Assembly (NCBI RefSeq): GCF_009727055.1
Contig: NC_052353.1
Location: 49,289,926 to 49,353,925 of the forward strand
DNA: 64,000 bases
Source of the DNA: Benincasa hispida
Taxonomy: Eukaryota > Streptophyta > Magnoliopsida > Cucurbitales > Cucurbitaceae
Reading direction: 5' to 3'
Position numbers and translations under genes: made by a program. Below, one piece after another: positions 32,600-64,000 of this stretch; position 1 is the stretch's first letter; every line of letters begins with the position of its first letter. The notes beneath the pieces are model-generated. The model had not been told where the DNA came from. It saw nothing but the letters and a program-made list of their open reading frames with translations, and made no database searches.

Positions 32600-33316
32600 C
32601 CTTGCTCATCTTTAAATTTGGGGGTGGGGAAGGTCTGAGCAGATAAGATCAAGAATATGTAGTATTTAAGAAAATACGTTCATTTTTCATCAAAAAAAAA
32701 AACTTTATGCAAAATTCCAATGTCAGCGCAAGGGAAATCCTTAAAAAATGTTCCCAACCTGATAAGAGTTTAGTTGTGAAAGGAGTCTGCTCGTAGTTGG
32801 ATGTTCATATGACACCCGTAGGAGCAAGCCAAAACGAAGGTGGGTTTCCAAGAACAACGCAATAAAAGAGAAAATAAAAGAGTGTAAGAGACAACTCCTC
32901 TGATTATCATGAGTTAAAGTTGAGATTGGCGCACAACCGTAGTTGGATGTTCGCATGACACCCATGGGAACAAACCAAAACGAAGAGTGTAACCATGACA
33001 AACAGTCTCTATTAAATAACACAAAGTTTGACCGTCACATATAGATATATCATGTTGTTTTGACAAAGAAGAGATAAACATTCTATTTTAAAAGAACTAG
33101 AAAGGCATCTTTGAGCAGAATTTTGTTATATAGAAGAATAAAGTAGGGCTTTGTTCAAAATTAGCAAGGATAGAAGGAAATTGCATTGTTAAGTAATGTG
33201 CCTAAGTGTAACATTTGGAGCAGCCAATCGATGCAAAAATATAGGAGAGGAATTTAGCTCTATTGCCTTAGTAGAAGATATGCTTAAGGACAAGCATATA
33301 TCTAAATTTGGGGGTG
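32600..33316 (+). other. Ath-B 3' non-coding region with twin boxes and PPT
   Basis: It holds the twin 46-bp box (32793-32838 and 32939-32984) and the polypurine tract TAAATTTGGGGGTG (33303-33316) next to the LTR. A second AAATTTGGGGGTGG tract lies at about 32612, far upstream, as in int-T1 and int-T2. Confidence 0.75.
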
Positions 33317-35125
33317 TGATAACTTGCAGAAATACAAGTTATTTATGCTACCTTATCTAGATATTGCAACCAAAAGAGAAGGAATATGCACCAATTGTAT
33401 GAAAATTAGCTTAGAATGACAATAATTCTGAATTATCGCAATTACATCCACTAACATCATTAAGATGGAAGAAAAGGAGATTTCTACTCTGTTTTGCAGG
33501 AAACCAAGTCACCGCTTACGATCAAGGCTCAACAAGAAATTGTGCCACGTGTCACATTGTGCCTGTCAATCAATAATGAAAACGATTATTGCAATGACAA
33601 CGTAATACGATAGTCGATCCAGAGCTGACTTTCAGTCGCATTCAGTAATAAAAACAACACCGCATGCGAACACTCGATCGAAAGATGCAGCTGAGCAACG
33701 CAAATGCGGAGGATTGTGTCACGTGTATGCCCAACGGTTGTGCAGATTTGACAGTCTGATTGTATAACAGAAGGAATAATATCCCTCCATCTTCGGAATG
33801 TCCATAACAACAAGTGGGGACTACAAGGCCGGAGTCAAAGATCTTCACCTATAAATACCCCATAGAATTCACAGAAAAAGGATATACTGAATACGGGGCT
33901 AATTGATGCTATTATATTGAGAAAAAAGGCTGAGCTGAGTGTTAAACTGAAGAAATCTGGGATGAAGAAGAGACAAGGCCGAGAGGTGAGTCTCAGTGTT
34001 AATCTGTCAGATCCCCGCCGCGAAGCTCTATACTCAAATCCTTGCTACCGGTTGAGCAAGCCTGAGAGGGAAGTTCATCCTTCCACATGATCCATCCATT
34101 CCGGCAAGCAAATCTCCATCCAAATCGGTGTCGAGATGTTGGCACTTGTTTGTATTTTTTTTCCATCTCTTTTCATCATTGCATCTCATCTTCTTTATCT
34201 CTTCATTCACACACCATGTATCAGACGCTAAATAGATATATTGAATGTCTCGATCGTTTTCATTACTACTTCTCTGTCTATTTCTGTTCCTCCGTTTATC
34301 ATTTTCTTCATGAAGTGTTCTTAATCCCCTGGTAGTCAATATGAATTAAATGAGTACTAGATCTGTGTTAAAGAGATGATTGTGTTTAGCTAGGGCATGC
34401 TAGACGGCATCTTCACCTGTGAGAGCAGAAGTGAAGATGTCATTTTGATTTATCGAGAGAAAGTCATAAGAATGTGTTAACTAGAGCGAGTAGTACTTCC
34501 AGATGGAAGCAACCTTGCGTTCATTACGTTCGTCTCTGTTTCACCAAAGACATGTGGGAATGCGGTTGATCACTGAAAAGTGTACGCTAAGGGAAAAAAC
34601 ATAACCGTACTTATGACTTTAACGCAATTAAGGAACTTGCGATTTTTATATTAGTTATCTTTCTCTTTCTACTTCGTACATAAGACTTGCCATCGCATCA
34701 CATGATCTGTGTATAATCTTCACAGCCAGCCTTGCCCTTAGTATTTTGTATCATGTCGCTTGTATCTTATACCATCTTAGCTTAGGTTTACTACATTTTA
34801 TTTTATTATCGCATTATACTTTATCACAACTTTATATACTTGTACACTTATACTTTTATTAAATTGAAAAACCTGGTCGCATGTATCACAAGCATAACGC
34901 AATAACCTCAAACAGTCCCTGTGTTTGACCTCGGATCACAGCGAGAAACTTGCAGTGAAATTATACTTGGTTTCAACGCAAGGAAACTTGTGACAATGCA
35001 CAACATACTACAAGAACATTGTTAATTAACGCATATCTAGAAGTAGTATCACATGGACTTGTATCATGCATCATATATCTAGTGCGTGTGCTTAAAATAG
35101 AAACAATAATAATTCTGTTCAACAC
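33317..35125 (+). repeat. Right LTR of Ath-B
   Basis: It starts TGATAACTTG and ends TGTTCAACA. A TATA box lies at 33850-33857. U5 stem-loop at 34949-34982 (arms CTTGCAGTGAAA and TTTCAACGCAAG, same loop). Followed by the duplicated target CTTGT. Confidence 0.9.
33850..33857 (+). promoter_or_regulatory. TATA box in Ath-B right LTR
   Basis: TATAAATA in the same context as 22913-22920. Confidence 0.5.
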
Positions 35126-37222: not shown

Positions 37223-39875
37223 TGTCACACCCCCTCCCAGATTACCCACATAATCTAGAAAGAGGCGTGAAGATGATAAACATCACCTCCCCCGATGACA
37301 TTTAGCATTTTACTAACCAACTTAACCTGCGCTTAAATCTGAATAGTTACACAATAATCCTTTAGTACATTTAATTTCCATTCAGCATATTCCATATTGC
37401 GATATCCACAAACAAGTTTCATAAACTTTCTCTCTCTTGTTATATACAAACCATGAACAAAGTTTAGACACAACGAAAACATTTTCAGACATTACACAAC
37501 AAAACAACTCCTCTTGTCCCGTACTTCCAAAACCATGACACATAAGGTTCGTGATATGCAATCTATTTACATCAGTGCAAGGCCTACAATGTAGCAGGAG
37601 ACTCTTGTCGTGTGGCAGTAAACAACTCAGCGTGTTTCCGGAACTTTAACGCTACCTGGGGGGGAAAACATAAAACATTGAAAGCATGAGCTAATGCCCA
37701 GTGAGTGGTAATTGAATATAAACATAAGTTATCGCTTTCTAAATCATCAATAAAAGTAATTAAATCATTCAATAAAACATTGGCCAAGTATAAAAGATTC
37801 AATAACATCTCAAACACGTGCTAGTAAAACAGTGGCATGATCAACTCTCATAAGCACATTTTAAAGCATTCAATCGTTATAAAGAAAAAAAAAAAAAAAA
37901 ACCACACCAACTCTGTACCCAAATACTCGTTTACAACGGCGGGTTACTCTGGACAAAGAATGCCCCCCACGGTGCAAACCAAATCACAAGGTCATACGTG
38001 CACGCAGAGCTGCCTCAAGGCCAAGCATAGATACCACCACAAGCCCAGGTTACTCTGGACTCCCCAGTATACTCTGGCCACATCTGACCCGGTGGTAGCC
38101 CCCTGATAGCCTGAATGCGCTACAGGCGCAGGTTCCTCTGGACTTTCCGATATACTCTGGCCACATCTGACCCCGGTAGCCCCCTAATCACCTGAGCAGT
38201 ACTACTGAAACACATTCAAGTAGCACGGGAACATAACCATCTCTCGAGTACAAGAATCAGTAGTTTGAAACATTTCACAAACCATTCAACAACCTTGATT
38301 CCACCATCAAGAAGTTTTCATAAAAACCATACAAAATCACAAGTATGTAAACTCTGATTTCAAACTACATTTTGATAAATCAAGATTGTATAAAACCAAT
38401 CGAGAGTTTAGAAATCATGATTTAAAACATTTTTGAAATATCAGTCAAGTAAAACAGATCATGCCATCACATTTCATAAATCATAGCATACTATCATATA
38501 TAATTACTTTCTATATGAAAACATTCGAAAATAAACCACTCACTATCACCGACATGAGCTCCTTGGGTTGTAAGCCTTTCCAACCTCAATTTGACCTGAA
38601 ATAAAGTCCCAAGGTTACTAGACACTCACGATAGGTAAAATCAACCAAAACAGCCATAGTGATTCAATGTACCACTTGAACTCATTTAACACCTAAACAT
38701 TCACATTTTGCTCCTTAAGTCCATTTTCCTCACATCACCCTAAATGGCCCAAAAAACTAGTTTTTAATCTAAAAGTTTCATTCTAGGGTCAAAATATCAA
38801 GAAAATCTTATTGGGATTCAAAAATGCTCAAACACCCAAAATGCTAAAAAACAAGCAATTGGGCAATAGAAATGGGCTTGCGCGCGGGCTGTGGGCATGG
38901 GTGGGCGAGGCTGGCCGTGGTAGGTAGGGCTGAATGAGTTGAGGCGTGCTGAGGGGCACTGGCATGGAAGGAGGCGCACTGGTGGGGCTTGCAGCCTTAG
39001 GGGGTGGCTGGCTTGCTGCTACCCTATTCGAGAAAACACTGGTTTCACTTTAACCAACTTTTAACCAACTTAAAGCAAAAATTTGCACATACTTTCTTCA
39101 TGAAATATGTTAATAAAACTTTAAGCTAATTAACCTCAAAATTAAAGCTCTTAACTCTATTCAAGAGCTCAGAATCTCTCCTGGACTACACCTTACTCGG
39201 ATTTTCCCGTTTTCCCGGGAACATTCACTATTTTCACAATTTCTTTAGTTTTCTGATCCCAAATCTCTCAAGTAGCCCTAGAATAGACTCATAACTCAAT
39301 AAGCTTTAATCTAGTTTAAATATAGAAGCTTTTGCACGAGTATTTTGGGAGAACCATCACATTCTTCAGACCTTAAATTTCTGGCCGAAGCTGCACACTT
39401 TTTTCTCCAATCAAAGTCCTCCACCCAGCTGCTTGTTTGCCCTACTACGTGGCTTTTTATTTATTTTCCTTATCCTTTGTAGCCTTACAAGACTTATCAA
39501 GTTAAATTAATTTTAGATTTTAGCAAATTAATCCAATAATTTTTTTTTAAAAAAAAACAAACAACTTCAATGCCCCTCTCGGCTAACTTGCATTTCCTAC
39601 AAAATTTGTTCTTTCTTTCCTTGTAAGCCTTAGCCAATAACAAATCATGTTCACTATACAATTGCCCAATCATGAAAAATTGTTCCAATAATAAAATGTA
39701 TTAATACATTTCTAAAAGAACTTGCATTTGTTAAGTAATTTCCAACTTTCATTCCAACACTCAAAATTAGAACTTTCTTAGGTCATATAATCCAAGTTAT
39801 TCATTTAGGTACATAAGCTCACTTATCTAGGTTGATGCTAAGAATAAACAAGAGAAAAAGGGACAAGGGCTTACA
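37223..39875 (-). mobile_element. S2: solo LTR, TGTCACACCC type
   Basis: It begins TGTCACACCCCCTCCC, ends GGGCTTACA and is flanked by the exact 5-bp duplication TCCTT (37218-37222 and 39876-39880). It is 2653 bp with no coding interior. The ends resemble S1 and Gyp-C, and it shares the CCCAGTGAGTGGT block, but much of the rest differs, so it is a related rather than identical family. An imperfect tandem block (about 37930-38190) repeats CTCTGGCCACATCTGACCC and GTAGCCCCCT. Confidence 0.85.
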
Positions 39876-41062: not shown

Positions 41063-41096
41063 CTTACATTCGCGTTATACTTGGCGTGAGCGCAAG
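41063..41096 (+). promoter_or_regulatory. U5 stem-loop, Ath-A right LTR
   Basis: Arms CTTACATTCGCG and CGTGAGCGCAAG around the loop TTATACTTGG. Confidence 0.6.
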
Positions 41097-42412: not shown

Positions 42413-42444
42413 CCTAGTAGGATTTATACTTGGATCTTGCTAGG
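42413..42444 (+). promoter_or_regulatory. U5 stem-loop, Ath-G LTR
   Basis: Arms CCTAGTAGGAT and ATCTTGCTAGG around the unchanged loop TTATACTTGG. The arms share almost nothing with those of Ath-A or Ath-B yet still pair (two G-T wobbles). Confidence 0.65.
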
Positions 42445-43071: not shown

Positions 43072-43516
43072 TGATGACATGCAGAAATGCATGTCATCTT
43101 AGGCATTTTACTTAGAATTATGAAGGTTGTTAGGCAAAATATGCGGCAATCATGATGGGAATTCATGAGAAAATGAGCTTGCGTCGATCAGCATGTTGAA
43201 TCTCAGCTAACCCGTTATTTTGTGTTATTATGCGTTCAATGTTCTATTTTTGTAGCTAAAACAGGAAATGGACGCAAACGCGAAAATTGGACCACCGCAT
43301 AGACGATCGTATGCAGAGAAACTCTCCATCGCAAAGCCGAATGCATCGATCAATGCATGGATGTTGCGGTAATCAGCCGCATGCGTCCATCGCATGGGAG
43401 TTGCGCTCGCCTAGCGATTGCAATCATCGTGTAGAGTTGCGGTATTAAGCAAATGCGGTCATTAAATGATTGCAGCTACGCGACAACGCATACTAATGGG
43501 ATCAACGCAAGATTGG
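43072..43516 (+). repeat. Ath-A-type LTR fragment
   Basis: It starts TGATGACATGC with the perfect terminal hairpin (43073-43098) and matches 36520-36970. It is cut by Cop-D at 43517. The rest of this LTR is not found downstream. Confidence 0.78.
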
Positions 43517-45488
43517 TGTGATTGAATACGAGACATACGTAGCGAAATTAGGATCTAATTACACTCTAATTGTTTTTAATTAAAAGGAAACTAACATGCA
43601 AAATGAAGGAAAAACAGTAAATTAATTTACCTTTGAAGCTCCCAAAAACTGCTTTTCCTCACTGAATCTCGACCCAAACTCTTACGGACCACCACTAAAA
43701 TTGACCTACTATCCCTAGACTCAGAACCGGGTTGTGGGACCCAATGGATGAAAAACCCGAGAGAGAGAAAAGAGATTGAAAATAAGAATGAATTTGGGTT
43801 TGGGTTTTTAATATTTCAGCCCAATTATGAAAACAATTTTTTGCAAAAAATGGGAAAAGTCTTTTATCCAAATTCAAAAGCTCATTTAATAGAAAAAACC
43901 ATGCAACATTTGCATGATCCAAATCCATAAAAACTCAACACCTAGAATCTACTATCTAAGTGGGCTTAATGTCTCCACTATAAGTCAACACCTAGCCCAC
44001 TATTTTGTTAGTGGAATTATCCAATAAAAGTTTGGATTTTCCCACTAACTTTAGTCAAAGGGCAAAATAGTCATTTGGTCAAAGTCAAACTTTGACCAAA
44101 AAGTCAACATTTTGACTTTTTATGATTTTTTCCGTGTTGACTAATTTTGACCTCCCGAGCCTGAATCCGCATTCATTTTCTCGAAATTCAAATCACATTT
44201 GAATATAAGGTCGGTCAAAGTTTGATTTTTTAAAGTCAAAAAGTCAACTCTTTGACTTTTTACATCTTTGACCATTTCCATTATTTCTGAGCTTCCGAAT
44301 ATGAACGTATTCCGATCTTCTTGATATTTAAATCACATTTAAATATTAAGTTGTATTCTCTAAGCTGAAAAATCGACCATTAATATCACATATACTTGTC
44401 GGTTTCTCTCTCTTCACCTAATTCGAACAATTCGAATTATTCTATCATACTGTTCTAAATTTATTCCATATGAGCTAGTAGGGGAACCTAAGGGACTAAA
44501 GATCATGGGCCCCAACAATCTGAGATTAATCGATAAAACTTTTAACCTAATTAATCAACATTTGTTAACTAATGGGTTCATTCCACTAAAGTCCCGTAGT
44601 TGCACTCCCCTCACTGTAGATATAATTGTGTCCATTTGATATAACTATGATTAGTAATTATTCCTTCACAGGTTGTTCGTAATCTCGGCTGGGTCATATA
44701 ACCATTTTACCCCCAAGACTACATCTTGTTCTTAAGTTCCACTGATCCTCTAAATGAATAATTGGTTTAAGGTCCAACCTATAAACCGAACCCTTCTCGG
44801 GCCAAGGAGAGGGTGGGCCCTTGTTTAAGACCTGGATTCAGTACTAAAGGGAACAACCTATCTACCTATCTCTATAAGGGTAGGATGTGAATTCTATCTT
44901 GCATCCTATGTTCCCAGCCTATCCACCTGATCTTACCCCTGAAATGGGAGGCTTATTGGGCCAACGATGATGAGTTGCCCTCACCTATGCAGATCTAAGG
45001 ATAATTCTGCTAGTGAATAGGAGTTCATAGTTAGCTCAGAATTAAGATTAAGTTACCTAGGTCATCAATTAACAAAATAGTCAGTTTTATACATAGAACG
45101 ATATTTAGAACGTAAAAAATGACTATTTCATGGTTCAGTCTTATGCACTCATTGCATAGGATACCTCCACTCACATATCTCTATATGAACGATTCAAGAT
45201 CAACATTCGTTTGTAACTAACTACAAAAGTGGGCCATCTCATAGTGTCCCCAGAAATTAAGGCGCCCAACCTTATTCATATACTATAGACACATTTTGGC
45301 TATATAATTTGAACTTGAGTCCACCTTTATGTCACTACATAAAGTTCAAAACTACGTTAAATAGCCTCAAGGACCTGAGTTTATTGGATTCAAGATTACA
45401 ATTTCAATAACAACTTTATCGAAAAAACAAAACAGAAATGTTTTATTAATTTAACAAAACTACGGTTTTAGGACCATAAAATCCGACA
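43517..45488 (-). repeat. 3' LTR of Cop-D
   Basis: On the minus strand it starts TGTCGGATTTTATGG, after a CCAAGTGGAGTT purine-rich stretch, and ends GTATTCAATCACA. Partial copies in the opposite orientation are at 14617-15305 and 21855-22155. It contains stacked TTGACTTT and AAAGTCAA blocks (44050-44270). Confidence 0.78.
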
Positions 45489-46209: not shown

Positions 46210-47550
46210 CTAATACCTACTGACGATCCCTACTGCATAGCTTATGTCAGGTCTAGTACATAACATTGCATACATCAGGCTCCCTACTGTGGAAGCATAG
46301 GGAATGCGTCTCATATCCTCAACCTCTTGAGGTGTCTTAGGACATTGATCCTTTGACAAATGAATTCCATATCTGTAAGGTAACATACCTCTTTTGGAAT
46401 TATGCATCTTATACCTAGACAACATTTTGTCTATATAAGTTGCTTGAGACATGGCTAGTGTTCTGTTCTTGGGGTTCCAAATAATCTGAATCCCGAGAAC
46501 ATACTGCGCATTTTCTAAATCTTTCATTTGGAACTGCGTTGTTAGCCATTTCTTGATGTCAGTTAGGTAACCTACTTCATTCCCAATGAGTAGAATATCG
46601 TCAACATATAAAACTAAGAACACTATAGTAGAATTGACGATCTTCTTGTAAACACAAGGCACGTCAACATTCTGTACAAAGCCATAAGATTTGATCGCAG
46701 TATCAAATCTTATATTCCAAGATCTAGAAGCTTGTTTCAACCCATAAATGGATTTTTGATGCTTACAAACCTTTTGTTCTTGACCCTGTGCAATAAACTC
46801 CTCTGGTTGAGCCATATAGATACTCTCCTCAAGATCGCCGTTTAGAAAGGCTGTCTTGACATCCATCTGTCAAATTTCATAATCATAAAAGGTGGCAATG
46901 GATAAGAGTATTCTAATCGACTTAAGCATGGCAATAGGAGAGAAAGTTTCTTCATAGTCCACTCCCTCTCTCTGGGTATAACCCTTTGCCACGAGTCGAG
47001 CCTTAAAAGTCTGTACTTTACTGGCTTGATTTCGTTTTCTATTGTAGATCCACTTACAACCAATTGGTTTTACATCATTTGGTTGATCTATAAGTTCCCA
47101 GACAAAATTGAAGTACATAGACTCCATTTCGAGGTTCATGGCTTTGACCCACTGATCACGATCCACATTTTTCATCGCCTATTTATAGGTCGATGGATCC
47201 TCTATGCCATCATCAAGTATGATGATTTGTGTTTTTGTTAAACCCAAGTAACGGTCAGGCTGATGAACAACCCTCCCACTACGTTGAGGCATTCTCAACT
47301 CTTGAGAAAGATGTGACTGGCCAGATATACTAGTTTTATTTACCACTTTAGTAGATGAACTAGTTCTATCTGTAGCGTCTTTGGAAATTTCATTCAATAC
47401 TAGTCTACTGCGAGGTTGATGACTTCTTATGTGATCTTTCTCTAAGAATGTGGCATTTGTCGATACAAATACCTTATTCTCTTGAGGATCTAAAATAGAC
47501 CACCTTTTGTTTCTTTTGGATAACTTACAAATAGGCATAGTTTTGAACAA
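46210..47550 (-). pseudogene. Reverse transcriptase of Cop-D, in-frame stops
   Basis: One minus-strand frame runs 47550-46210, interrupted by stops at 47179-47181 and 46870-46872. The first part (47550-47179) is the integrase-RT linker (DPQENKVFVSTNATFLE). RT then reads [67 protein letters not shown] and the catalytic LVLYVDDILLIGN. It ends YASTVGSLMYAMLCTRPDIS. The TGA at 46870 stands where relatives have Trp (EIWQMDVKTAF), and the stop at 46210 where Gln is expected. It is a single-frame, nearly complete copia RT. Confidence 0.92.
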
Positions 47551-48151: not shown

Positions 48152-49281
48152 GCTCCAGCCATTCCACTGAAAAAAGGATGCTTGAATACAGAGAAAAGTG
48201 TATATACTGATCTAAGGGAGAGACTGGTTGAGCGACTAATCAGAGTAGATCCGGGAAGAATTAAGAGATAAGGCCGAGAGGTGAGTCTCCGGGCAAAGAA
48301 TTCTTCCGATCCCCACTGTTGAAGCTCTGTACAAAGGTCACCTTTACCAGATGAGCAAGTCTGAGAGGGAAGCTCTTCTGTTCATCCATTCCACATGCCA
48401 GCAAGCAAAACCACCGTCCAGATCTATGTCAAGACGTTGAAACTCTTCTGTATTTGTGTCTATCTCTTCATCATCACATGTATTCATCTTCTTAGTCTAT
48501 CATTCACACCATGTATCAGATGCTTAATTCTATAATTAAATGTTATGATCATTTTCATCTCCATCTCTTTGCCTATTTCCATTCATCCATATTTCACTTT
48601 TTCCACTATGTTTTCTTAATCAATTGGATAATTAGCAATAATTGAGTAAGTAAATTAATTGGGTTAAGGAAATAATTATGTTTAGCTAAAGCATGCTAGA
48701 CGGCAGACGGCATCTTCACCTGTGAGAGCAGAAGTGAAGATGCCATTCTGCCTATCGAGAGAGGGTTGGAAGAATGCGTTAACTAAAGTGAGAAGTACTT
48801 CTAGAGATGGAAGTAACCTTCCGTTCACCACGTTCATCCCTATTTCACTATAGAGATATGGGAACGCGGCCGATCACCGAGAGGTGTACGCCAAGGGAAA
48901 GTGGAACCTTAGTTGTATCTTTAACGCAATTAACAAACTTGCAACATTTGTACTAATTATTCTTTATCCTTCTGATTCATCCATAAAGCCTTGCCATCGC
49001 ATACCACGATCCTTTATATAAACTTCACAGTCAGTCTCGAACTCAGTATCATGTATATCATGTATCTTGTATCCTACATCACATTAGCTTAGGTTTATTT
49101 TCATTGCAATTTATTTTATTAACGCAACTTTAGTTTATCTGCACAATTTTACTTTACCGCAATTTACTGTCCTGTACAAACACACAATCTTTATTAATTG
49201 TAAAAACCGGTCGCATATATCGCAAATGTAACACATTAATGACAACAATCCCTGTGTTCGACCTCGGATTACTCTGAGAAA

Positions 49282-49315
49282 CTTGCGTTGGAATTATACT
49301 TGGTTTCAGCGCAAG
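49282..49315 (+). promoter_or_regulatory. U5 stem-loop, LTR-T1
   Basis: Arms CTTGCGTTGGAA and TTTCAGCGCAAG pair along all 12 positions (two G-T wobbles) around the loop TTATACTTGG. Confidence 0.7.
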
Positions 49316-49646
49316 GAAACTTGTGAGAACGCATAGCATACTACAAGCATTTCATTAATAACGCATACATCTAGAAGTAGTATCGAATAAAGTGTAAATA
49401 AACATAACACAGCATCCACACTCCATCTCCATCTTTCCAAGTCATCAAGTTTATGGCAACATGAGCTTATATCATTCACATTCATATTTGTCCATATCCA
49501 TATAATGCTTATTTAGAGAACATTAAGATTACATTTTTGCATTACAAGTTTATGGTGTCATTGCTGGGGACATGAGTTTGTAGCACATTATCTATCAATA
49601 CAGTGCATGCATAACAAGGAATTAAGATTTTAGAGTTACAAGTTTA

Positions 49647-49664
49647 TGGCGCTATTGCCGGGGA
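49647..49664 (+). promoter_or_regulatory. Primer-binding site of int-T1, tRNA-Asp type
   Basis: TGGCGCTATTGCCGGGGA, two mismatches from the consensus, after the usual AGTTTA. Confidence 0.75.
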
Positions 49665-51948: not shown

Positions 51949-53835
51949 TGATAACTTGTAGAAATACAAGTTATTTATACTGCTTTATTTAAATATTGTG
52001 GTTAAAAGAGAGGAAAGTTGCGTCAATTGTATGGAAATTAGCTAAGAAATACAAGAATTATCGTCAATACACCCACTGACACCATTACGATGGTAGAAAG
52101 GAATATTTCAAGTCTGTTTTGTAAGAAATAAAGTCACCGTATGCGCTCATGGCTCAAGAGAAAAAGAACAACGCATCTACGTCGCATTGCGCCAATCATT
52201 CAGGAATGAATAGACGATCAACGCAATGACGGTGCATGTGATGATCGATCAAGAGCTTTGCGATCAACGCAACTTCAACTGCACGCAGTAATCAAAAACA
52301 ACACTACATGCGAGCACACGATCGAAAGATGCAAATGAGCAACGCAATCACAGAGGATTTTGACACGTGTACAACTAACCGTTGTGCATTTTTGACGGAT
52401 TGATTGCATAACAGAAGGAATATTTATTCCACCATTTTCGGAATTTTCATGACAATAAAATGGGGACCACACGACAGAGAGTCAGAGCATTCATCTATAA
52501 ATACCCTCAGAGAATTCGCTGAAAGATATACTTGATATGAGGCTATTTTGATATTTGTATATTGAGAGAGGGACTGATCTGAGTGCTGATCAAAGAAGAT
52601 CCAAGAAGAAAAGAGGCAAGGCCAAGAGGTGAGTCTCAGGGCGAATCATTCCAAATCCTCACCGTGAAGCTCTATACCTTGATCAACTCTACCAGTTAAG
52701 CAAGCCTGCGAGGGATGCTCATCCTTCCATTCACTCTATACGCCGGCAAGCGAATTCTCCATCCAGATCTGTGTTAAGACGTTGGCACTCTTCTGTATTT
52801 GTTTCTATCTCTATCATCAATTGTATCTCATCTTCTTAGTCTAAATCATTCACACATGTATCAAACGCTTGATTCTATAATTAAATGTCATGATCATTTT
52901 CATCTCCATATTTCTGTCTATTTCCGTTCCTCCATTAATCGCTTCCTCCACGATATTTTCGTAATCCCTTGGTAATTAGAATGAATTAAACAAGTAAATT
53001 AATTTGTGCTAAAGGAATAAAGATGTTTAGCAAAAGCATGCTAGACGGCATCTTCACCTGTGAGAGCAGAAGTGAAGATGCCTTTCTGATCTGTCGAGAG
53101 AAGGTTAGAAGAATGCATTAACTAAAGCGAGAAGTACTTCCAGAGATGGAAGCAACCTTGCATTCATTACGTTCATCCTTGTTTCACCACAGAGATGTGG
53201 GAACACCACCGATCATCGAGAGGCATACGCCAAGTGAAAGCAAAACCGTAGTTATATATTTAACGCAATTAATGAACTTGCGATGTTTGTACTAATTATC
53301 TTTTCTCTTTTTTCTTCATACATAAAGCCTTGCCACCACATAACACGATTCTTTGTATAATCTTCACAGTCAGTCTCAAACTCGGTATCATGTATCATGT
53401 AACCTATATCTTTTATCATCATAGCTTAGGTTTACTTTTATCGCACTTTACTTTACTGCACAACTTTATTTTATCGCAATTTTACTTTAATGCATGTTTT
53501 ACTTTATCACATGTACAAACCTCACTTTTATTAAATTGAAAAACCCCGGTCGCATATATCACAAACGTAACACATTAACCAGGCAATCCCTGTGTTCGAC
53601 CTTGGATCACTCCGAGAAACTTACGGTGGAATTATACTTGGTTTCAATTGTGATAAAGCATAGCATACTGCAACTATTTTTTAATACGCATACATCTAGA
53701 AGTAGTATCGCATAAAGTGTGCATGAGCAACAACACAACATAAGATTACCTTTTGCATTACAAGTTTATGGCAATATGAGCTTGTAGCACATCATCATGC
53801 ATGCACATTACGAACGTTCAAATCCCAAGTCATCA
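51949..53835 (+). repeat. LTR-T2
   Basis: It starts TGATAACTTG and ends AAGTCATCA. TATA box at 52496-52503. The U5 stem-loop (53620-53653) is weakened by a small deletion in its right arm. A primer-site relic (AGTTTATGGCAATATG) lies within the LTR at about 53763. Confidence 0.85.
52496..52503 (+). promoter_or_regulatory. TATA box in LTR-T2
   Basis: TATAAATA, same context as the other Ath-B-type LTRs. Confidence 0.5.
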
Positions 53836-53841
53836 AGTTTA

Positions 53842-53859
53842 TGGCGCCGTTGTCGGGGA
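53842..53859 (+). promoter_or_regulatory. Primer-binding site of int-T2, tRNA-Asp type
   Basis: TGGCGCCGTTGTCGGGGA, one mismatch, six bases after LTR-T2. Confidence 0.87.
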
Positions 53860-53954
53860 TTGGTTAACGGTTATTGTTTGAGAATGTTTGTGGTATTTTG
53901 AAGGACAGATCTCTTTGTACTGGTTGTTCAATACGAAGAGCAGTCTGACAGTTT

Positions 53955-55429
53955 ATGAGTATTGGTACCGAACTAGAATTTGTCGTTGACCCAGAGATCG
54001 AGCGTACATTTCGTGCACGGGCACACCAGAACCGAGCAAGGCAAAAGAAAGTAGCTGATATGGTAGATAATAATGATAATGCGGCTCCCGTAGGAAATTA
54101 AGGGGCATTACGGCCAGTGCAAGATCCAGTTTTCCTTGCTGCTGTTCGCAACATTCCCATGAGAAATTATGCGGCGCCCAATCTGTACGATTTTTCACCT
54201 GGGATTTCAAGGCCGATGGTCGAGGAGAACACGAGATTCGAGATAAAGTCGGTCATGCTCCAAATGATCAAGAATGCAGGGCAATTTGGGGGTCGACAAG
54301 GTGAAGACCCACATGCTCAACTGACCAGCTTTGTCGAGATGTGCGGCAACTTCTCAATACCTGGCATTACCCCTAAGGGTATTAGATTATATCTCTTCCC
54401 TTACACCTTGAGGGATGAAGCTAAGAGGTGGGTTCACTCACTGGAGCCAAACGAGATTACTTCATGGGATCAGCTGGTTGAGCGGTTCATGAAGAAGTTC
54501 TTCCCACTGGCTGTCAACGCAAGGCGATGGAAGGATGTGGTGAACTTTGAACAAATGGACAATGAGACCCTGAGCACTGCCTGGGTGCGATTTAGGAGAC
54601 TGGTGAAGAACTGCCCGTATATCGGGATACCCGATTACATCCTGATGGAGACATTTTATAATGGCCTGAACAGATCAACGTAGGTTGTTACTGACACCTC
54701 CGCGACAGAAGGTTTTATGGATAAGACGTATACCGAGGCTAAGGTCATCCTTGACCACATCTTGCGGAACATGGATGACTGGATTAATGATGGTTATGGT
54801 GGCAGAGGCTCCGAAAGAAGAAAGAATGAATCTTCCATTGTCCCTACAGAGACAATGACGACTTTGGCCGCACAGATGGCGGCAGTGACCTCTATACTCC
54901 AATCGATGGCAATCAATCAAGAAGCCATTCCCCAACAATCAGCGCAACCTGCTGCACCGGCTCAAGTGGCCGCAATCAGTTGCATTAATTGTGGATGGGC
55001 TCATATAAAAGAAATGTGCCCATCGAATATCCAACAAGTATGCACCATCCAGAACAACTCCTTCAACAACACATATAATCCTTGTTGGAGGAACCATCCT
55101 AACTTCGGTTGGGGAGGGAATCCTAACCAAGGAGAACTAAGCAACCATCAAGGTGGCAATTCAGGGAATCGGGGAAACCCTCCTCCCTTCCACCATAATT
55201 CTAATCAAGGGTAACAAAGGCAATCGCACAATCAGCAACCCTCATCTTCAAACACCTCTGGAAGCTCATTGGAGGTCCTGCTCAAACAATACATAGACAA
55301 AAATGACGCAGTGATGCATGTGCAGGTGTCTTTAATTCGAAAGGGCAGCTAGCTTCTGAACTTAGAAATAGAGCACCTAGAACGTTGCCTAGCAACTCTG
55401 AATCCCCCGGATCTCATGAAAAGGAGTAA
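53955..55429 (+). pseudogene. Gag of int-T2, three in-frame stops
   Basis: One frame from the ATG at 53955 (MSIGTELEFVVDPEIERTFR) to the stop at 55427 covers a whole Athila-type gag of about 490 codons. Blocks in order: NYAAPNLYDFSPGISRP, VMLQMIKNAGQFGG, LTSFVEMCGNFSIPG, LRDEAKRWVHSLEPNEI, RFMKKFFPLAVNARR, WVRFRRLVKNCPY and ETFYNGLNRST. A zinc-knuckle-like CINCGWAHIKEMC (CX2CX3HX4C) follows near 54980-55020, and the tail is GQLASELRNRAPRTLPSN. Stops interrupt at about 54100, 54681 and 55212; Ath-B has CAA and CAG at the first two, so these are C-to-T changes. There is no frameshift, making this the best-preserved gag in the window. Confidence 0.9.
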
Positions 55430-55622
55430 TGTCCCTGAAGACATTGGANAAGGGTAACAAAGGCAATCGCACAATCAGCAACCCTCATCTTCAAACACCT
55501 CTGGAAGCTCATTGGAGGTCCTGCTCAAACAATACATAGACAAAGAGCACCTAGAACGTTGCCTAGCAACTCTGAATCCCCCGGATCTCATGAAAAGGAG
55601 TAATGTCCCTGAAGACATTGGA
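55207..55622. repeat. Duplicated gag end around a single N
   Basis: 55207-55448 recurs as 55450-55622 (the second copy lacks about 69 bp), with one N at 55449 between. Ath-B has this block once. Probably an assembly join rather than a real duplication. Confidence 0.85.
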
Positions 55623-55639
55623 CAGGAAAGCTGGACCGC

Positions 55640-56592
55640 CTACAGAGGTGTGGATTGTGCTCATTCAAAGAAAGTCATCTTTCGGTCCATATCTCACATC
55701 TATGTTTAAATGCTTTCTTTAATTTCTATCTTTACTTCATTCAATTTGTTTCATGACTTTATTCATTTATTCTTCAATTAACTCTCTTGCATTTATTTCT
55801 GTATTTTCTTTAATTCATGTAACTTTTCTGTATTTAATGCGTTATTCTTTAACCTGGTGAATGATTGAGTAATGAGAAGAAATTTATTACCGCAAGTCAT
55901 AGAAACTTGCGTTGATGAAATAAAATAAAATAAAATGAAATTATAATAAAATAAAACACATTCAGTATGCATGGCGATAATGGATGCATCTTGAACTAAC
56001 AAGATACACTTTGCGTTCACCCAACCCTAATGCATTGCGCTGAAGTGTGTGTTATGCGCATGTGTGTCCTTTGCCCGTCCTTAGTGAAAATGCACTATGT
56101 TGAGGTAGTGTTACGCTGGTAGAAATACCGTGCGCCCGATCCTCCAGAAATGCGTTTAGTTAAGGGGTATGTTGCGGGGATGCATGCGTTGTTGCCCGTC
56201 CTCTACAAAGATGCATTTGCATTGGTGAACTCATTTCGTTAAATCTTTACCTTGCGTCCATTCGAATAAAACATTAAAGATAATTCTTGTTGCAATTTGA
56301 GGAGAACAATCGTTCCGTATCCTAAAGAAATGATGAGCTACAGACGAAAGGATGTGTACTCTGAAACCTCATAAATATGGGGAGTTCAAACAGTGGGCCT
56401 TTTGAGTGTCTCGAGGCCTGCCACCACAACAATAGTGTTGGGCCCACTAAGGCCCAACCTATAAAAAGGACCCCTCCGTCTGTGAGCACACTTTGCCTCA
56501 TTTGCAATCTTAATCCCTAACGCCTCTACATACCGAGCTTTCTTCTTCCCTGAGACCCTAATGTTTTCCCACTTTCTTTAACCTCAGCATCC
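55640..56592 (+). other. Spacer between gag and second ORF of int-T2
   Basis: Non-coding and homologous to 25870-26770. Contains five 60-bp direct repeats at 56013-56255. No pol. Confidence 0.65.
56013..56255. repeat. 60-bp direct repeats
   Basis: Units start at about 56013, 56073, 56134, 56194 and 56253 (GCGTTCACCC, GCCCGTCCT, GCCCGATCCT, GCCCGTCCT, GCGTCCATTC), each with AAATGC and AAGGGGT-like blocks. Confidence 0.7.
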
Positions 56593-59480
56593 ATGGCCGA
56601 TCAAACTTTCCAACCTTCCACTTCACCCTCAACACCTTTGACAGACCAACTCTTCATGCGAGAGGCACCATTCCTTGCTGCTCAACCTCACACTGTTCCT
56701 AGAATCGCTGGAAGACCCCGGTAAAACCCATTAGCCGTCAGACCACTTCAGTTCAAGAGGGGGTAAAGTACTGAAAACACCCCACTCCCAACTCCAGCAT
56801 TCTCCACTAAAAGCAAAAAGAAGAGACGAGGTGACAAGAAGGTATTCGGAAACATTCTGAGTAGCTTGTAGAAAGGAGAAGGACTGCCCGAGGCTGGGAT
56901 TGTAAACCAACCACTACTTCAGAGGAGGCGACGGTGGCGATGACGGAGGAAGTGGTGGTGGCAGAGGAAGTGGTGGAAGAGGAGACAAGGAGAAGCACTC
57001 TAGCCATAAGGGATCCTGAGGAAACTACGCAAGTAGAATCCTATGAAGGACCCATCAGAGTTGCATTGGAGAAAGTCGTGGCAGAGAAGCAACCAGAGGT
57101 GGAAGAGGAGAAAAAAAAGAAAAAGCAGAGCAAGGGAAAAAAGGTTGGAGAAAGTGAGTTATCCCATCATCGCAAAGAGAAAAAGAATAAAGAAAAGAAG
57201 AAGGATGAAGAAGATGAGGAGGCCAAGCTAAGGAAGAGAAAAGAGAAGGAAGAAAGGAAAGAACGCAGCCGTAAGGAAAGGCGCCTGAAGAAGGAAGAAG
57301 AAAAGAAGAAGAGGGCTACAAGCCCAGAGATGGATGGGGAATCCACCTCCCTGAGGGAGGACAAGAGGGAACCAGCACAACCTGAAACAACACAAACTGT
57401 TGCGACTGAAGAAGAAGAAAGAGGAGATGTTACCCCCTTGATGCGGCGTCGTAAGGAGAATGCGTCGCAAGGGTCAACCATTGGCTCGCCAATTTTGATT
57501 GACACATTAGAAGAACAGAAGAGGAGGAAGAGAAGAAGGAAAAAATGGCGCGGGCACAACTCATCATCGCAAAAGGTGATAGAAGAAGAAGATTACAAGA
57601 TGAGGAGGTGCGCTGCAATAATGAAATCTCGAGGATCGAAGAAATAAGGAGGCTCGAAGAGGAGCAGCGCATATTGCTGGCCTCTGAGCAGTTCGAGAAA
57701 GAGTTGGAAACAGAGAAGAGAGAAGAGGAAGAAGAAGAAAAGAAAAAGAAGGCAGAAGAAGAAAGGAGAATGAAAGAAGAGAAGGAAAGGAAGCACGAAG
57801 CCAACAGGCAGCGCTTAAGTAAGAAGAAGGGTAAGGAACTTGCCGAATGAAAGAAGGAGGAACAATGCAAGGAATGGGAAAGAAAACAAAGGCAACAATC
57901 CCACCTTGCGTTGGCCAAGGGAAAGGGAAAAGCAGTCGTAGAGAGCAGCAAGCCCGCATTGGCAAAGGTGCATCCATCAAGAAAGAAAGAGAACAATGAC
58001 TTGTTGATGGAGATGGGCTTTTTCCCTGCACCAACGCCACTACCAGATCTGATCACAAGTGTGATCGTAGAACATGGATGGGACACATTTTGCCAGTGTC
58101 CAGCCATTGTTATTCCAGAGGTAGTGCACAACTTCTACCACGGATGGCTACATGGCACCAAGGATGTGGTGACCATAAAAGGGAAAATGGTGTCTTTCAG
58201 CGCAAGGGACATCAATGAACTATACCAAATGAAGGATAACCCAGATGCATCGGGTAACAAAATCATTGATAATCCCACTGAAGAGCAGATGGAAGATGTG
58301 CTGCGAGTATTAACGCAATCGAGCACTAAGTGGTTGATTTCTTTAAAAGGCATCAAGACCCTGGCGTCCAAGACTCTGCTTTTGGAAGCACGGCTTTGGG
58401 TTTATTTGGTCAAACGACGGCTGATCCCAACTTCTTATGACAAGACAATTTCAAGGGATCGAGTTATGGCTGCATATTTCATTTCGCGGGGCATTCCAAT
58501 CGATGTAGGCCAATTTGATCGCAAGACAAATCAGGGGTTTTGTGGGGCACATAAGAGGGCAGTACTTCTTCCCATGGACGGTTTCAAGTTTATGCCTATC
58601 ACTAGGTGTGGGCATTGATGAAGAGCCAATGGCAGAAGTTCACGGCCTAATAAACGTCAAGATTTTGAGGTTGCTCCTCAAAGATTCCCCACACTGCCCT
58701 GAGTTCCCTTTGAAGAGGCCTAACATTGATTTAAATGCACCGCAAGAGCCCAAGCCGAAGAGACAGCGCAAAGATGTTAAGGAAAAGGAGAAAATCCAAG
58801 AAGAACCAACGCAAGATCTAGAACCCTTGGACCCTTTACCCTTGATAATTCTCCCTCTAAGCCCTCCCGCACAACCTTCTTCTTTCCTTCCTGAGCACTT
58901 TACCAATCTTCTCCTTCCCCCAGATTCTCCAACCGCATATCCAGCAGCCCCATCATCACCTTCAGCATCATCACCGCAACTTCCCCTTCCACCGCCGCAT
59001 GTTGATGACCCACACGATTTGGGTGAAGGCACCTCTACCCAACCCCAAAACGTTGCTGGCAAAACATCGCAGGCACAACCCACTATCGCCTCCCTAGTTG
59101 CTGAGTTAGCAGATATGCGGTCCCTTCTGGCTTAACAACAACAACTCTTCTCTTAATAGCAAGAACTCTTTTCTCAGCAACAAGCCTTCTTCGGCCTGAG
59201 AATTGATGCGGTAATTGAGCGAGTTAATGATTTACAATGCACTGCTAATATGACCAGGCAGGTGTTAATCAATATTCAGCAAAACATTCTTATGATCCAT
59301 CTGCATCAAAGATAGATAGCGGAGCGCAGCCATGAGTACTTTAATTTTTTGACAGCATATCTTCATGGACCCATGGTTCCTTCGCATCTCAGGTAGCACT
59401 TGATTTTTGTAGATGCTCTTCAAGTACCACATCCGAACCCTTCTCCAAACCCCCCTGCTCCTCAACAATAATCTTTCCAT
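56593..59480 (+). pseudogene. Transposase_32-like ORF of int-T2, broken
   Basis: Same layout as 26771-29736. The start at 56593 (MADQTFQPSTSPSTPLTDQ) runs to a stop near 56723. A Lys/Glu-rich coiled coil follows (56934-57647, then shifted to 57545-57850). The central domain (57960-58560) is uninterrupted: EMGFFPAPTPLPDLITS, VEHGWDTFCQCPAIV, FYHGWLHGTKDVVTIKG, MVSFSARDINELYQMK, DNPDASGNKIIDNPTEEQM and TISRDRVMAAYFISRGIPID. A frameshift near 58560-58600 leads into the C-terminal part (LGVGIDEEPMAEVH, then Pro-rich and Gln-rich stretches). The central domain is better kept than in Ath-B. It resembles the Transposase_32 plant transposon domain; its role is unknown. Confidence 0.75.
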
Positions 59481-60616
59481 TCATTTTTTTTATGCGGCCA
59501 TTCTTTTATCTCTATTTCATTCATTGTTTAATTAAATTCTTTGATTCTTTATACAAGCCAAAATTTTTGTATTGCGTTATTGTGATTATTTGTATACTTA
59601 GTTAATTTTCAATACAACTAAGTAGCAATTCTATCTATGTGCCTATGACTCTTCTTTATCATCCTTTGTCAACTTTGCAATATTCTTAATCTTTCTTTTT
59701 ACGTTATTCATTGCGCTGCCATGATGTATAATATGCATTTACTTAGAAACATTTCCCATACTTTGTAATTTCCAACTAACACTTAGGTAATTTGTAGCTT
59801 AGCAATGCTTTACCTTTTACCCTTCCAAATTATGCTCAAACCTTCTTTTTGAAATTTTGTCTAAGTGTTTGTCTATTCTATCCAAACAACACAATGAAGA
59901 CCTTGCGCATCTCTAAATTTAAGGGTGGGAAAGATCTGAGCAGATGAGATCAAGAGTATGCGGTCATTAAGAAAAATGCGTTCATTTTTTGTCTCAAAAA
60001 ACAAAAAAATTCAATAAACTCCAATGTCAGCACAAGGGAAACCTCAAAAACATTCCCAACCTGATAAGAATTAAGTTGTAAAAGGAGCCTGCTCGTAGTT
60101 GGATGTTCGCATGACACTCGTGGGAGCAAGCCAAAATGAAGGTGGGTTTCCAAGAACAACGCAATATGAAAAGAAAAATAAATAAAAGAAATAAGAGACA
60201 ACTCTTCTGAAACTCATGAGTTAAAATAGAGATGGCACACAACCGTAGTTGGATGTTCGCATGACACCCGTGGGAATAGGCCAAAACGAAGGGTGTAACA
60301 ATGATCAATAGTCTCTAATAAATGACGCAAAGTTCGACCACTGCATCCAGACGCATCAAGTTGTTTTGACAAGAAGAGGTAAACATTCTTTTTAAAACTA
60401 GAAAAACATTTTTGAGCAAAAATTTGTAGTATAGAATAATAAAGTATGGCTCTGTTAGGAATTTTCAAGGATAGAAGGAAATTCCGATGTCAAGTAATGT
60501 TGCCTAAGTAGAGAATTCGGAGCAACCAATCGACGCAAAATTTAGAATAGGAATTGAGCATTATTGCCTTAGTAGAAGATATGCTTGAAGCAAGCATATA
60601 TCTAAATTTGGGGGTG
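59481..60616 (+). other. int-T2 3' non-coding region with twin boxes and PPT
   Basis: The twin box is at 60095-60140 and 60245-60290. The polypurine tract TAAATTTGGGGGTG (60603-60616) adjoins LTR-T3. Confidence 0.75.
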
Positions 60617-62522
60617 TGATAACTTGTAGAAATACAAGTTATTTATACTGCTTTATTTAGATATTGCGTTTAAAAGAGAGGAAAGTTGCATCAATTGTAT
60701 GAAAATTAGCTAAGAAATACAAGAATTATAAATTGTCGTCAATACACCCACTGACACCATTGCGATGGTAGAAAGGAATATTTCAAGTCTGTTTTACAGG
60801 AAATAAAGTCACCGTATGCGCTCATGGCTCAAGAGAAAAAGAACAATGCATCTACGTCGCATTGCGCCAATCATTCAGGAATGAATAGACGATCAATGCA
60901 ATGACGGCACATGTGACAATCGATCAAGAGCTTTGCGATCAACGCAACTTCAACCACATGCGGTAATAAAAAAACAACACCGCATGTGAGCACACGATCG
61001 AAAGATGCAAATGAGCAATGCAATCGCGGAGGATTTTGACACACGTAGAACTAACCGTTGTGCATTTTTGACAGATTGATTGCATAACAGAAGGAATATA
61101 AATTCGACCATTTTCGGAATTTCCATAACAATAAAGTGGGGACCACACGGCAGAGAGTCAGAGCATTTAACTATAAATACCCTCAGAGAATTCACTGAAA
61201 TATATACTTGATATGAGGCCATTTTGATATTTGTATATTGAGAGAGAGGCTGATCTGAGTGCTGATCGAAGAAGATCCGAGAAGAAAAGAGGCAAGGCCG
61301 AGAGGTGAGTCTCAGGGCAAATCATTCCAAATCCTCACCGTGAAGCTCTGTACCTCGATCAACTCTACCGGTTGAGCAAAGCCTGAGAGGGATGCTCATC
61401 CTTCCACTCACTCCATACACTGGCAAGCGAATTCTCCATCCAGATCTGTGTCAAGACATTGACACTCTTCTATATTTGTTTCTATCTCTATCATCAATTG
61501 TATCTCATCTTCTTAGTCTAAATCATTCACACCATGTATCAGACGCTTGATTCTATAATTAAATGTCATGATCATTTTCATCTCCATATTTCTGTCTATT
61601 TCCGTTCCTCCATTAATCGCTTCCCCCACGATGTTTTCGTAATCCCTTGGTAATTAGAAGGAATTAAACAAGTAAATTAATTTTTGCTAAAGGAATAAAG
61701 ATGTTTAGCTAAAGCATGCTAGACGGCATCTTCACCTGTGAGAGCAGAAGTGAAGATGCCTTTCTGATCTGTCAAGAGAAGGTTAGAAGAATGTGTTAAC
61801 TAAATCGAGAAGTACTTCCAAAGATGGAAGCAACCTTGCATTAATTACGTTCATCCCTTTTTACCACAGAGATGTGGTAACACGGCCGATCACCGAGAGG
61901 TGTACGCCAAGGGAAAGCGAAACTATAGTTATATCTTTAACGCAATTAATGAACTTGCAATGTTTGTACTAATTATCTTTTCTCTTTTTGCTTCATACAT
62001 AAAGCCTTGCCATCACATAACACGATTCTTTGTATAATATTCACAGTCAGTCTCAAACACGGTATCATGTATCATGTAACCTATCTCTTGTATCATCATA
62101 GCTTAGGTTTACTTTTATCGCACTTTATTTTACTGCACAACTTTATTTTATCGCAATTTTACTTTAACGCATGTTTTACTTTATCGCATGTACAAACCTC
62201 ACTTTTATTAAATTGAAAAACCCGATCGCATATATCACAAACGTAACACATTAACCAGGAAATCTCTGTGTTCGACCTCGGATCACTCCGAGAAACTTAT
62301 GGTGGAATTATATGGTTTCAACGCAAGGAAACTTGTGACAATGCATAGCATACTGCAAGTATTTTGTTAATAACGCATACATCTAGAAGTAGTATCGCAT
62401 AAAGTGTGCATGAGCAACAACACAGCATAAGATTACCTTTTGCGTTACAAGTTTATGGAAATATGAGCTTGTAGCACATCATCATGCATGCACATTACGA
62501 ATGTTCAAATCCCAAGTCATCA
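60617..62522 (+). repeat. LTR-T3
   Basis: It starts TGATAACTTG and ends AAGTCATCA, very similar to LTR-T2. TATA box at 61172-61179. A CTCGGA/TCCGAG stem follows the GTTCGACC box (about 62277-62292), then a U5 stem-loop with an 8-nt loop (62296-62327). Confidence 0.87.
61172..61179 (+). promoter_or_regulatory. TATA box in LTR-T3
   Basis: TATAAATA, same context as the other Ath-B-type LTRs. Confidence 0.5.
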
Positions 62523-64000
62523 AAAGATAAGAATGAAAACGGACTTGAGAGACCCTATCAATTTCTAGAGTTTGCGGAGTTCCGAATCCTATAATACAGC
62601 CCTCCGATTGGTAAGGTCGCTCCGGGGCAGACATGCAGGTGCATTATAGAAATCTCACGGTGCAACCTAATGGAAGAGACCATAGGATGTGTTGACACAC
62701 TTCCTTCTCCCACTTATTATGAACAACTTCCCCTATTCCCCTTGGTATTGACTCATGCAAACACTCTCCAAATGGAGTCCGCTCCCAAGGCGGACCAAAG
62801 CCAAGCATGAATCTCATGGTGTGAACTTTTAGGGACGCTAGAGCTAAAAGTACATTACTTCTCTCCAGCTGAAGTGTTCTAGACGGTTATGGTATAAAAT
62901 ACTTAGCGATACATTTCGGCTAACTAAACATATCCTAAGTCTAGGTGATTCATCCGAGTATAACTTTTATATTGGATTTTTAACCTACGAGGTTTAGGTG
63001 ATAAACAAATTTTATTACCTCACACCGTTCATGCATGCTTATAAAATCGGTTTAACCTAACTCAGATGCCGGCTCGATCTCCAGGTAGTAGGTGTTCCGT
63101 GAACCGTCAAGTTAAAAACCTTCAACCTTAGTCATCTTATCTAACTTTTTGCCAAGATCTTTCTGGGTGAGTTTTCTTGTAACTTCGGTTTTACAAGATA
63201 TCGACCTATTTTCTATGAAGATTGGGATTGCTCGATGGTTAACCCTAAGTGAGCATGCATCTTATCTTTGTCATAGATTTTAGAAGTCTGGGTTATTTTA
63301 TAACAATTATAACCCTAGACCATTCATCTATAACATGCTTCCTTCAATCAAACATGCTTTAATATAACACTTATATTAAAACTAAGCATGCATAGTATAT
63401 ATTTTATAACACTTATAACATATAACAAATGCATGTCACATGCTTTTCCTATGGTGGGTTTTTAAAACTATATGGCATACTATATGCACATATAATCAAA
63501 CAACATTATACATCACATGCATAATAGGTAAACAACACTAAAGTGGACCGATTTTCGCATTAGAAAAAATAAATAACTAATTTATTGCATAAATCAGCAA
63601 CCAACTTCCCGGAACCAGCTTCAAACACTTTGAACCATCTGAAACCGATCAGAAACCACTCGAACCGGCCCAAAAACACCAAAAATCAAGTTGAACCAGT
63701 CAAACCGGCTCAACCAGGTCAAACGGACTGGTCAAGATCGTCTGGACCGACTGTTCAACGCTCGCTGGCACGATCAATGGAGGCACGGGGTTGGTCGGGT
63801 CAAACTGAATGCGCGGGTCGCGGAAGCGGGAGGCGCGTGGGTCACGGGTTGCGGGTTGCAGGCGAACGGCGCACGCAAGGCAGCTTCGGGCTGAGAATCA
63901 GATTAGGTCGCAGAACGGGCTAGAGCATTTCGTCGACAGCTGACGCGCACAGGTTGCTCCAAACCGGGTCGAATTGCGGGCTGCGAGTCGGGTCTGGGAG
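62523..64000. other. Unassigned repeat-like stretch, GC-rich at the end
   Basis: No gene is recognised. 62523-63540 has the look of a non-coding retroelement LTR, possibly minus-strand copia, but I see no matching second copy here. 63580-64000 is GC-rich with short CCGG-type motifs (CGAACCGGCC, AAACCGGCTC) and carries an open frame (63585-63923) of low complexity that I do not call a gene. Confidence 0.35.

Follow-up and report, generated by a model that had tools for sequence, protein, structure and literature searches.

A probable sense-strand RNA hairpin that has a nearly fixed apex and precedes the primer site in LTR retrotransposons of wax gourd

In retroviruses, U5 structures adjoin the primer site, as do the U5-IR stem-loop and U5-leader stem of Rous sarcoma virus and the U5-PBS domain of HIV-1. 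Among plant LTR elements, BARE is of the copia type. Hairpins in U5 and long-range helices close to the primer site are already known in retroviruses. They are known in Ty1 as well, whose 5' leader contains a 7-bp GAGGAGA/UCUCCUC long-range helix within a pseudoknot that is needed for efficient initiation (PMC4974528; partial text). The same source called the RNA structure of Ty3 uncharacterized in 2016. BARE carries packaging and dimerization signals, and a Gag-less relative keeps these cis signals (PMC3735527; partial text); the available portion of that paper mentions neither 'loop' nor 'secondary structure'. A 2025 review of the life cycle of plant LTR elements leaves 'packaging signal', 'encapsidation', and 'dimerization' unmentioned (PMC12786077).

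Here we consider a hairpin, designated HP2, in a 64-kb window (the whole stretch of DNA analyzed) from wax gourd, Benincasa hispida. The genome searched comprises 913 Mb in 1791 contigs (913 Mb is also the size of the published assembly; PMC6856369; partial text), and the analysis covers this one genome and one contaminant contig. We conclude that HP2 is a paired RNA element, probably of the sense strand, which lies upstream of the primer site and has a nearly fixed apex.

HP2 copies and their module in the window

The arm sequences and coordinates of the original prediction agree with the window sequence, as does its statement that TTATACTTGG is common to LTR copies, where it starts on the plus strand at 5677, 24033, 34961, 41075, 42424, 49294, and 53632. 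The window contains 8 exact matches to TTATACTTGG compared to 0.10 expected, and 0 of 100 shuffles reach 8. The eighth match is on the minus strand at 37784 and lacks the surrounding module. Read on the plus strand, 37784-37793 is CCAAGTATAA, the exact complement of the whole loop, which lies outside any module and ≈800 nt downstream of sequence related to 43072-43526. In a search of the window for a cyclization partner of the loop, this plus-strand CCAAGTATAA was the one complement found; it is either a chance match or a long-range partner.

HP2 copies that differ in their arms had been predicted to pair nonetheless. This holds for the copies at 49282, 42413, 24021, 5665, and 34949, which fold clearly (z -4.6 to -6.9), and much less for the copy at 41063, whose fold is weak (z -2.0; Table 1). 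The copy at 42413-42444, said to have arms unrelated to the others yet complementary, does fold (z -6.5), and the versions in LTR-T2 (53620) and LTR-T3 (62296) are weakened as described (z -2.6 and z -0.6, respectively). A scan of the window for anchor and loop added the minus-strand copy with its apex at 13432-13441 to those originally listed.

HP2 belongs to a conserved module that spans ≈75 nt and consists, in order, of a 15-mer anchor, a weaker hairpin (HP1), AAA, HP2, and AAACUUG. Rfam gave 0 matches in the window at the gathering threshold.

Table 1. Positions of HP2, its copies, and the other parts of the module in the window
Feature	Position	Strand	Evidence and remarks
HP2	49282-49315	+	Arms 49282-49293 / 49304-49315, apical TTATACTTGG 49294-49303; RNA fold -18.3 kcal/mol, z -6.9
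HP2 copy	5665-5698	+	z -4.8
HP2 copy in LTR 22374-24197	24021-24054	+	z -5.2; tail 24056-24062; CAAGTTT 24196-24202; primer site 24204
HP2 copy in paired LTR 33317-35124	34949-34982	+	z -4.6
HP2 copy, weaker	41063-41096	+	z -2.0
HP2 copy, unrelated arms CCTAGTAGGAT / ATCTTGCTAGG	42413-42444	+	z -6.5; primer site 42524
HP2 copy, damaged 3' arm, LTR 51949-53836	53620-53653	+	z -2.6
HP2 copy, 2-nt loop deletion, LTR 60617-62523	62296-62327	+	z -0.6, no better than shuffles
HP2 copy, apical TTACACTTCA 13432-13441	13421-13453	-	z -3.8; precedes primer site at 13325 (-)
Anchor TCCCTGTGTTCGACC, module start	49249-49263	+	6597 exact genome copies (3244 + 3353), reversed control 0
Small hairpin HP1 (CTCGGA / TCTGAG)	49263-49278	+	Predicted fold; weak covariation
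Tail AAACTTG, complementary to CAAGTTT preceding primer site	49317-49323	+	Sequence; family counts
CAAGTTT, putative LTR end and spacer preceding primer site	49639-49645	+	Sequence
Primer site	49647-49664	+	2 mismatches against the tRNA-Asp 3'-end complement; tRNA-Asp gene of the Benincasa hispida genome

Primer-site-like sequences complementary to tRNA-Asp (at most 4 mismatches) occur at 22282, 24204, 42524, 49553, 49647, and 53842 on the plus strand and at 13325 on the minus strand. A primer site of the tRNA-Asp type, as in the Athila clade (OTA, Ty3/gypsy), is thus present, and non-chromoviruses use tRNA-Asp among other tRNAs (PMC6317226; partial text). The location of HP2 upstream of the primer site was borne out: the module is present, by script thresholds, in 65 of 70 copies picked by their primer site, and the hairpin lies inside the LTR in the window pairs. 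By eye, the module is recognizable in L173 (loop deleted) and L238 (damaged); no module was found in the stretch searched in L187, L198, and L235. A TATA-like string at a constant distance was not found (at most 2 of 65 copies per 30-nt bin), so that placement of the module in U5 rather than R is putative.

The window holds two LTR pairs. The first (22374-24197 and 33317-35124) and the second (51949-53836 and 60617-62523) have diverged by K2P distances of 0.064 and 0.062, respectively, which correspond to ≈7 million years at the rate of 4.5e-9 given in the wax gourd genome paper (PMC6856369; partial text). No gypsy-type reverse transcriptase was found in the open pieces scanned in the window, which leaves the Athila-like assignment putative. 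An integrase zinc-binding piece (PF17921) with a sub-threshold rve match is located at 7944-9120 on the minus strand. The element at 51949-62523 contains a gag piece (PF03732) at 54102-54680, for which 12 relatives were found, all in Benincasa hispida, and a PF20167 (Transposase_32) piece at 57851-58615, with no reverse transcriptase in the pieces scanned; judging from these sequences, this element is possibly polymerase-less and copied in trans.

Other parts of the window contain a copia-type reverse transcriptase piece at 46213-46869 on the minus strand (PF07727, E 1.6e-39) and a tandem array at 20091-21007, which has ≈155-nt units in about six copies by length that are ≈80% alike and is related to 15310-15623. 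The stretch at 11964-12917, where several long open frames overlap on both strands, resembles repetitive sequence more than genes.

Covariation of the arms and conservation of the apex

Copies for the tests were picked by strings outside the hairpins, and neither arms nor pairing was ever used in selection; the anchor TCCCTGTGTTCGACC overlaps the hairpins by its last base only. The anchor sample comprises 91 copies among 100 matches listed of 6597, all on contig C1, and the second sample comprises the first 70 of 493 matches (254 + 239) to the exact primer-site string. The two samples have one copy in common, and both are the start of match lists and hence non-random, with exact anchors favoring less decayed copies. 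The covariation set holds 163 modules, 158 of them distinct; the window copy at 62296 was dropped, and the minus-strand copy at 13432 is absent.

Event counts come from parsimony on a FastTree tree, which was built from the same 58 columns as were tested, and the null redistributes the changes of each column over the branches. The prediction had named covariation above a phylogenetic null as its check, and HP2 shows it, with 16 compensatory double changes compared to 5.24 (sd 2.3) in the null (as many in 1 of 500 simulations) and 13 compared to 1.62 on internal branches (as many in 0 of 500). Of 117 changes on internal branches, 89 preserved pairing (0.761 compared to 0.455 in the null; 0 of 500), and an earlier sample of 122 modules gave 11 double changes compared to 2.6 (0 of 300). 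The HP2 arms also pair better than slid or swapped arms: slid pairings gave 0 to 5 double changes, and the 158 distinct modules form 9.91 HP2 pairs on average with their own arms compared to 6.67 with arms swapped between copies. At least 9 of the 11 inner HP2 pairs form in 144 of these 158 modules, among which an identical TTATACTTGG sits on 63 different 5' arms. In an APC-corrected G-test against a column-wise null, five HP2 pairs rank at 2, 4, 5, 9, and 10 of 1653 and no pair reaches E<0.05, which we think is caused by a few families that dominate the variance.

Among 1896 HP2 cells, in which inherited changes are counted many times, 289 are G-U and 76 are A-C. Single steps from Watson-Crick pairs lead to G-U 38 times and to A-C 16 times on internal branches, and 87 and 59 times, respectively, on all branches. 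Equal numbers would be expected if mutation of double-stranded DNA were symmetric, and we infer from the excess of G-U that the selected strand is the sense RNA. A DNA-level signal, in which a protein would recognize the LTR through the 10-mer or through a cruciform, would fit a 10-mer that is nearly fixed across modules. We give this explanation almost no credence, since a DNA site would need no covarying arms. Moreover, a single RNA strand is indicated both by the G-U excess and by the minus strand of 49282-49315, which folds less stably (-6.3 kcal/mol, z -2.4, compared to -18.3 kcal/mol).

Templated correction of quasi-palindromes is a known process. Arms could therefore match with no selection on structure if a reverse transcriptase or polymerase slipped in the quasi-palindrome and copied one arm onto the other, and copies with a deleted or damaged hairpin tip do exist (L173; window copy at 62296). 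It is highly improbable that slippage accounts for HP2: such correction would yield perfect palindromes, yet G-U pairs stand in 289 of 1896 cells, ≈4 to 1 over A-C, and the apex, anchor, and tail, which lie outside the arms, are conserved too. The selection on RNA structure proposed in the prediction is supported by the covariation, the better arm pairing, and the G-U excess of HP2, with a G-test that finds no significant pair standing against it, and we regard the HP2 structure as well supported.

HP1 was tried as an equal partner of HP2 and rejected. It was stronger in the first sample (7 double changes compared to 0.88; 0 of 300) and weak in the larger one (6 compared to 2.02, with as many in 6 of 500 simulations and in 13 of 400 in another run), where none fell on internal branches and one slid control reached 4. 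Its cells contain 55 G-U and 57 A-C pairs and hence show no strand-specific wobble tolerance.

The near-invariance claimed for the loop was confirmed in the 122-module set, for which parsimony gives an average of 4.7 changes per loop column compared to 12.1 per arm column, although location of the loops by motif similarity somewhat overstates this conservation. Changes at loop positions 9 and 10 are mostly from G to A (12 and 19 of 158 modules), which keeps a pair with U and is also common in decay. The description as a 10-nt loop holds for the conserved 10-mer and not for its predicted structure: in RNAfold models of the better window copies, U.G, U.G, and A-U pairs close around UACU, which they do not in 13421-13453. 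From this folding, the 10-mer probably pairs further and leaves a YACU tetraloop, so that HP2 may be a 15-bp stem.

These features of the apex bear on dimerization through a kissing loop, one of the functions suggested for the structure. UAUA in the loop is a 4-nt palindrome, and leaders of LTR elements carry dimer signals, as in BARE (PMC3735527; partial text). However, 31 of the 158 distinct modules have C at loop position 4, which gives the non-palindromic UACA, and all apical nucleotides except UACU are predicted to be paired in most window copies folded. Given the UUACACUUGG variant, a palindromic dimer loop is very unlikely.

The tail, the primer-site flank, and a second lineage

In the primer-site sample, 57 of 65 copies have AAACTTG at the tail position, an 8-position window after HP2, compared to 0 of 65, 65, 65, and 64 in four control windows further 3'. 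In the anchor sample, 72 of 91 copies have it there, compared to 0 in the controls. Columns aligned on the tail carry 1.6 to 2.0 bits, which are somewhat overstated because the alignment took the best match, and the following columns mostly carry <0.75 bits (one 1.14). Immediately before the primer site, CAAGTTT is present in 53 of 65 copies. The tail of 54 of 65 copies pairs with the letters before the primer site at 7 of 7 positions (G-U allowed), and the two lie 42 to 467 nt apart. The best complement of these letters is the tail in 58 of 65 copies (ties counted), and 0.5% of trials with shuffled CAAGTTT yield a 7-nt complement within the conserved segments. Partition folding with RNAfold of 62 copies, with the primer site blocked and 3 copies of >420 nt left out, gave mean pair probabilities >0.5 for HP2 in 53 and for the long-range helix in 44 of the 62. 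The long-range helix shows no covariation (own 6.77 compared to shuffled 6.76 of 7).

Pairing of the loop with the CAAGU that precedes the primer site (5 bp) is feasible by sequence but was rejected: it competes with the 7-bp tail pairing, and nested folding, a method blind to kissing pairs, assigns it a mean probability of 0.001. Separately, the LTR end is duplicated in tandem in the window, with CAAGTTTATGG at 49446, 49545, and 49639 and a primer-site-like sequence after the last two, and L194 and L198 likewise have two to three LTR-end units, as if the junction had been copied again.

Our preferred explanation, held with moderate confidence, is that HP2 lies in a U5 RNA domain of tRNA-Asp-primed Ty3/gypsy-type LTR retrotransposons, and that this domain most likely serves replication by presenting the primer site and by recognition of its apex. 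Within the genomic RNA, HP2 would form the apical hairpin of a domain made up of the anchor, HP1, AAA, HP2, and a 7-bp helix, in which AAACUUG just 3' of HP2 would pair with CAAGUUU just 5' of the primer site across a loop of very variable length. This long-range helix would place the primer site beside HP2 for the start of reverse transcription. The apex (U.G, U.G, A-U, YACU tetraloop) may mark the RNA for recognition by the Gag or reverse transcriptase of the element itself. We infer three points here, namely transcription of the domain as drawn, formation of the long-range helix, and the identity of what binds the apex. The folded HP2 RNA seems to be needed for the elements to copy themselves.

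The location of the module in the presumed RNA leader would also fit control of translation or nuclear export instead of replication, and structured export elements are present in the mouse elements IAP and MusD (PMC12786077; partial text). We consider such leader control unlikely, since it explains neither the match of the tail to the primer-site junction nor the presence of a different loop in another lineage.

This second lineage (lineage B) is marked by the variant anchor TCCCTGTGGATCGACC, which has 68 genome matches, 40 of which were examined (L243-L262, L266-L285); a further anchor variant has 58 genome matches. The loop pattern A(C/U)UAACGACA is matched loosely in 36 of the 40, on two main arm sets and shortly before a tRNA-Asp-type primer site. 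The lineage B hairpin forms 6.58 of 8 pairs compared to 1.6 to 3.6 when slid, and swapped arms give 6.07, so that covariation is slight there. A UUUGUUU-type sequence pairs with an AAACAAA-type sequence beside the primer site in 4 of 7 lineage B copies folded (L245, L246, L252, L276) and in L187, and this pairing is missing from L250 (cut short), L272, and L280; shuffles of the A-rich letters pair as well in 10 to 30% of cases.

Lineage B also bears on a contact with the primer, in which the loop or anchor would base-pair with other parts of tRNA-Asp, as in Ty1/Ty3 or the primer activation signal of HIV-1. The anchor contains UUCGA, whose UCGA is complementary to the UCGA of the tRNA-Asp T loop, and Ty1 and Ty3 use such tRNA contacts (PMC4974528, PMC5371799; partial texts). 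Nevertheless, a primer contact appears quite improbable. The longest match to the tRNA-Asp of this genome outside the primer-site duplex is equaled by 43% of shuffled loops and 49% of shuffled anchors, pairing energies with tRNA-Asp are equaled by 20% (loop) and 23% (anchor) of shuffles, and for the C variant of the loop 65% (match) and 27% (energy) of shuffles are as good. A role in priming through pairing of the loop with tRNA-Asp, another of the functions suggested, thus does no better than shuffles. Moreover, lineage B has a tRNA-Asp-type primer site yet another loop, which favors element-specific recognition over tRNA contact.

Lineages in this one genome share the kind of primer site and have similar anchors, different conserved loops (UUAUACUUGG compared to A(C/U)UAACGACA), and paired stems that drift and lie close to the primer site. 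As a tentative extension of the preferred explanation, the apical loop might be a lineage identity tag on a shared chassis, read by the element's own Gag or polymerase. If so, the seemingly polymerase-less elements in the window (22374-35124 and 51949-62523) could be copied in trans.

Relatives elsewhere and known systems

Among the genome contigs searched, one plant contaminant was found. This contig (L202; BMWJ01000030.1) is labeled Streptomyces clavifer, contains plant-like sequence that looks like the end of an LTR retrotransposon, and is contamination in a bacterial genome record. It has an anchor variant, an HP1-like CTGG/CCAG hairpin, and TACACTTG ≈20 nt before the primer site; the stretch matching HP2 folds as ACCCUA-CACU-UGGGGU, and its likeness to the HP2 loop is a candidate homology. 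In viral contigs, 81 stretches contain the 14-mer, one has a loop-like string in an unrelated context, and none has the primer-site string. The module is not described in the available portions of the open-licence literature searched (PMC only, no subscription papers), including PMC10578108, PMC3601003, PMC6317226, PMC3735527, PMC12786077, PMC4974528, PMC5371799, PMC4918200, PMC6856369, and PMC9456015.

LTR elements occupy large parts of plant genomes. A small covarying element offers a direct target for studying how the elements select their own RNA, by what means polymerase-less relatives get copied, and whether RNA tags separate lineages. The module can also serve as a marker in the annotation of U5 and show the orientation of solo LTRs.

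The module may be likened to retroviral U5 RNA in having a putative U5 hairpin shortly 5' of the primer site and a predicted helix that would join U5 to adjoining sequence. It differs in an apex that is nearly fixed across families and in a predicted helix that would use the putative LTR end and spacer, with no sequence relation shown. Ty1 has a 7-bp long-range helix in the primer-site region, comparable to the one predicted here, but belongs to the Ty1/copia superfamily, uses an initiator-Met primer, and has another geometry. Sireviruses share with the module conserved non-coding motifs of plant LTR elements (PMC2829016; partial text), but are also Ty1/copia. Finally, retrozymes resemble the module in carrying a structured RNA inside plant LTRs with Ty3/gypsy-like ends, but that RNA is a hammerhead ribozyme, and their primer site is of the tRNA-Met type (PMC4918200; partial text).
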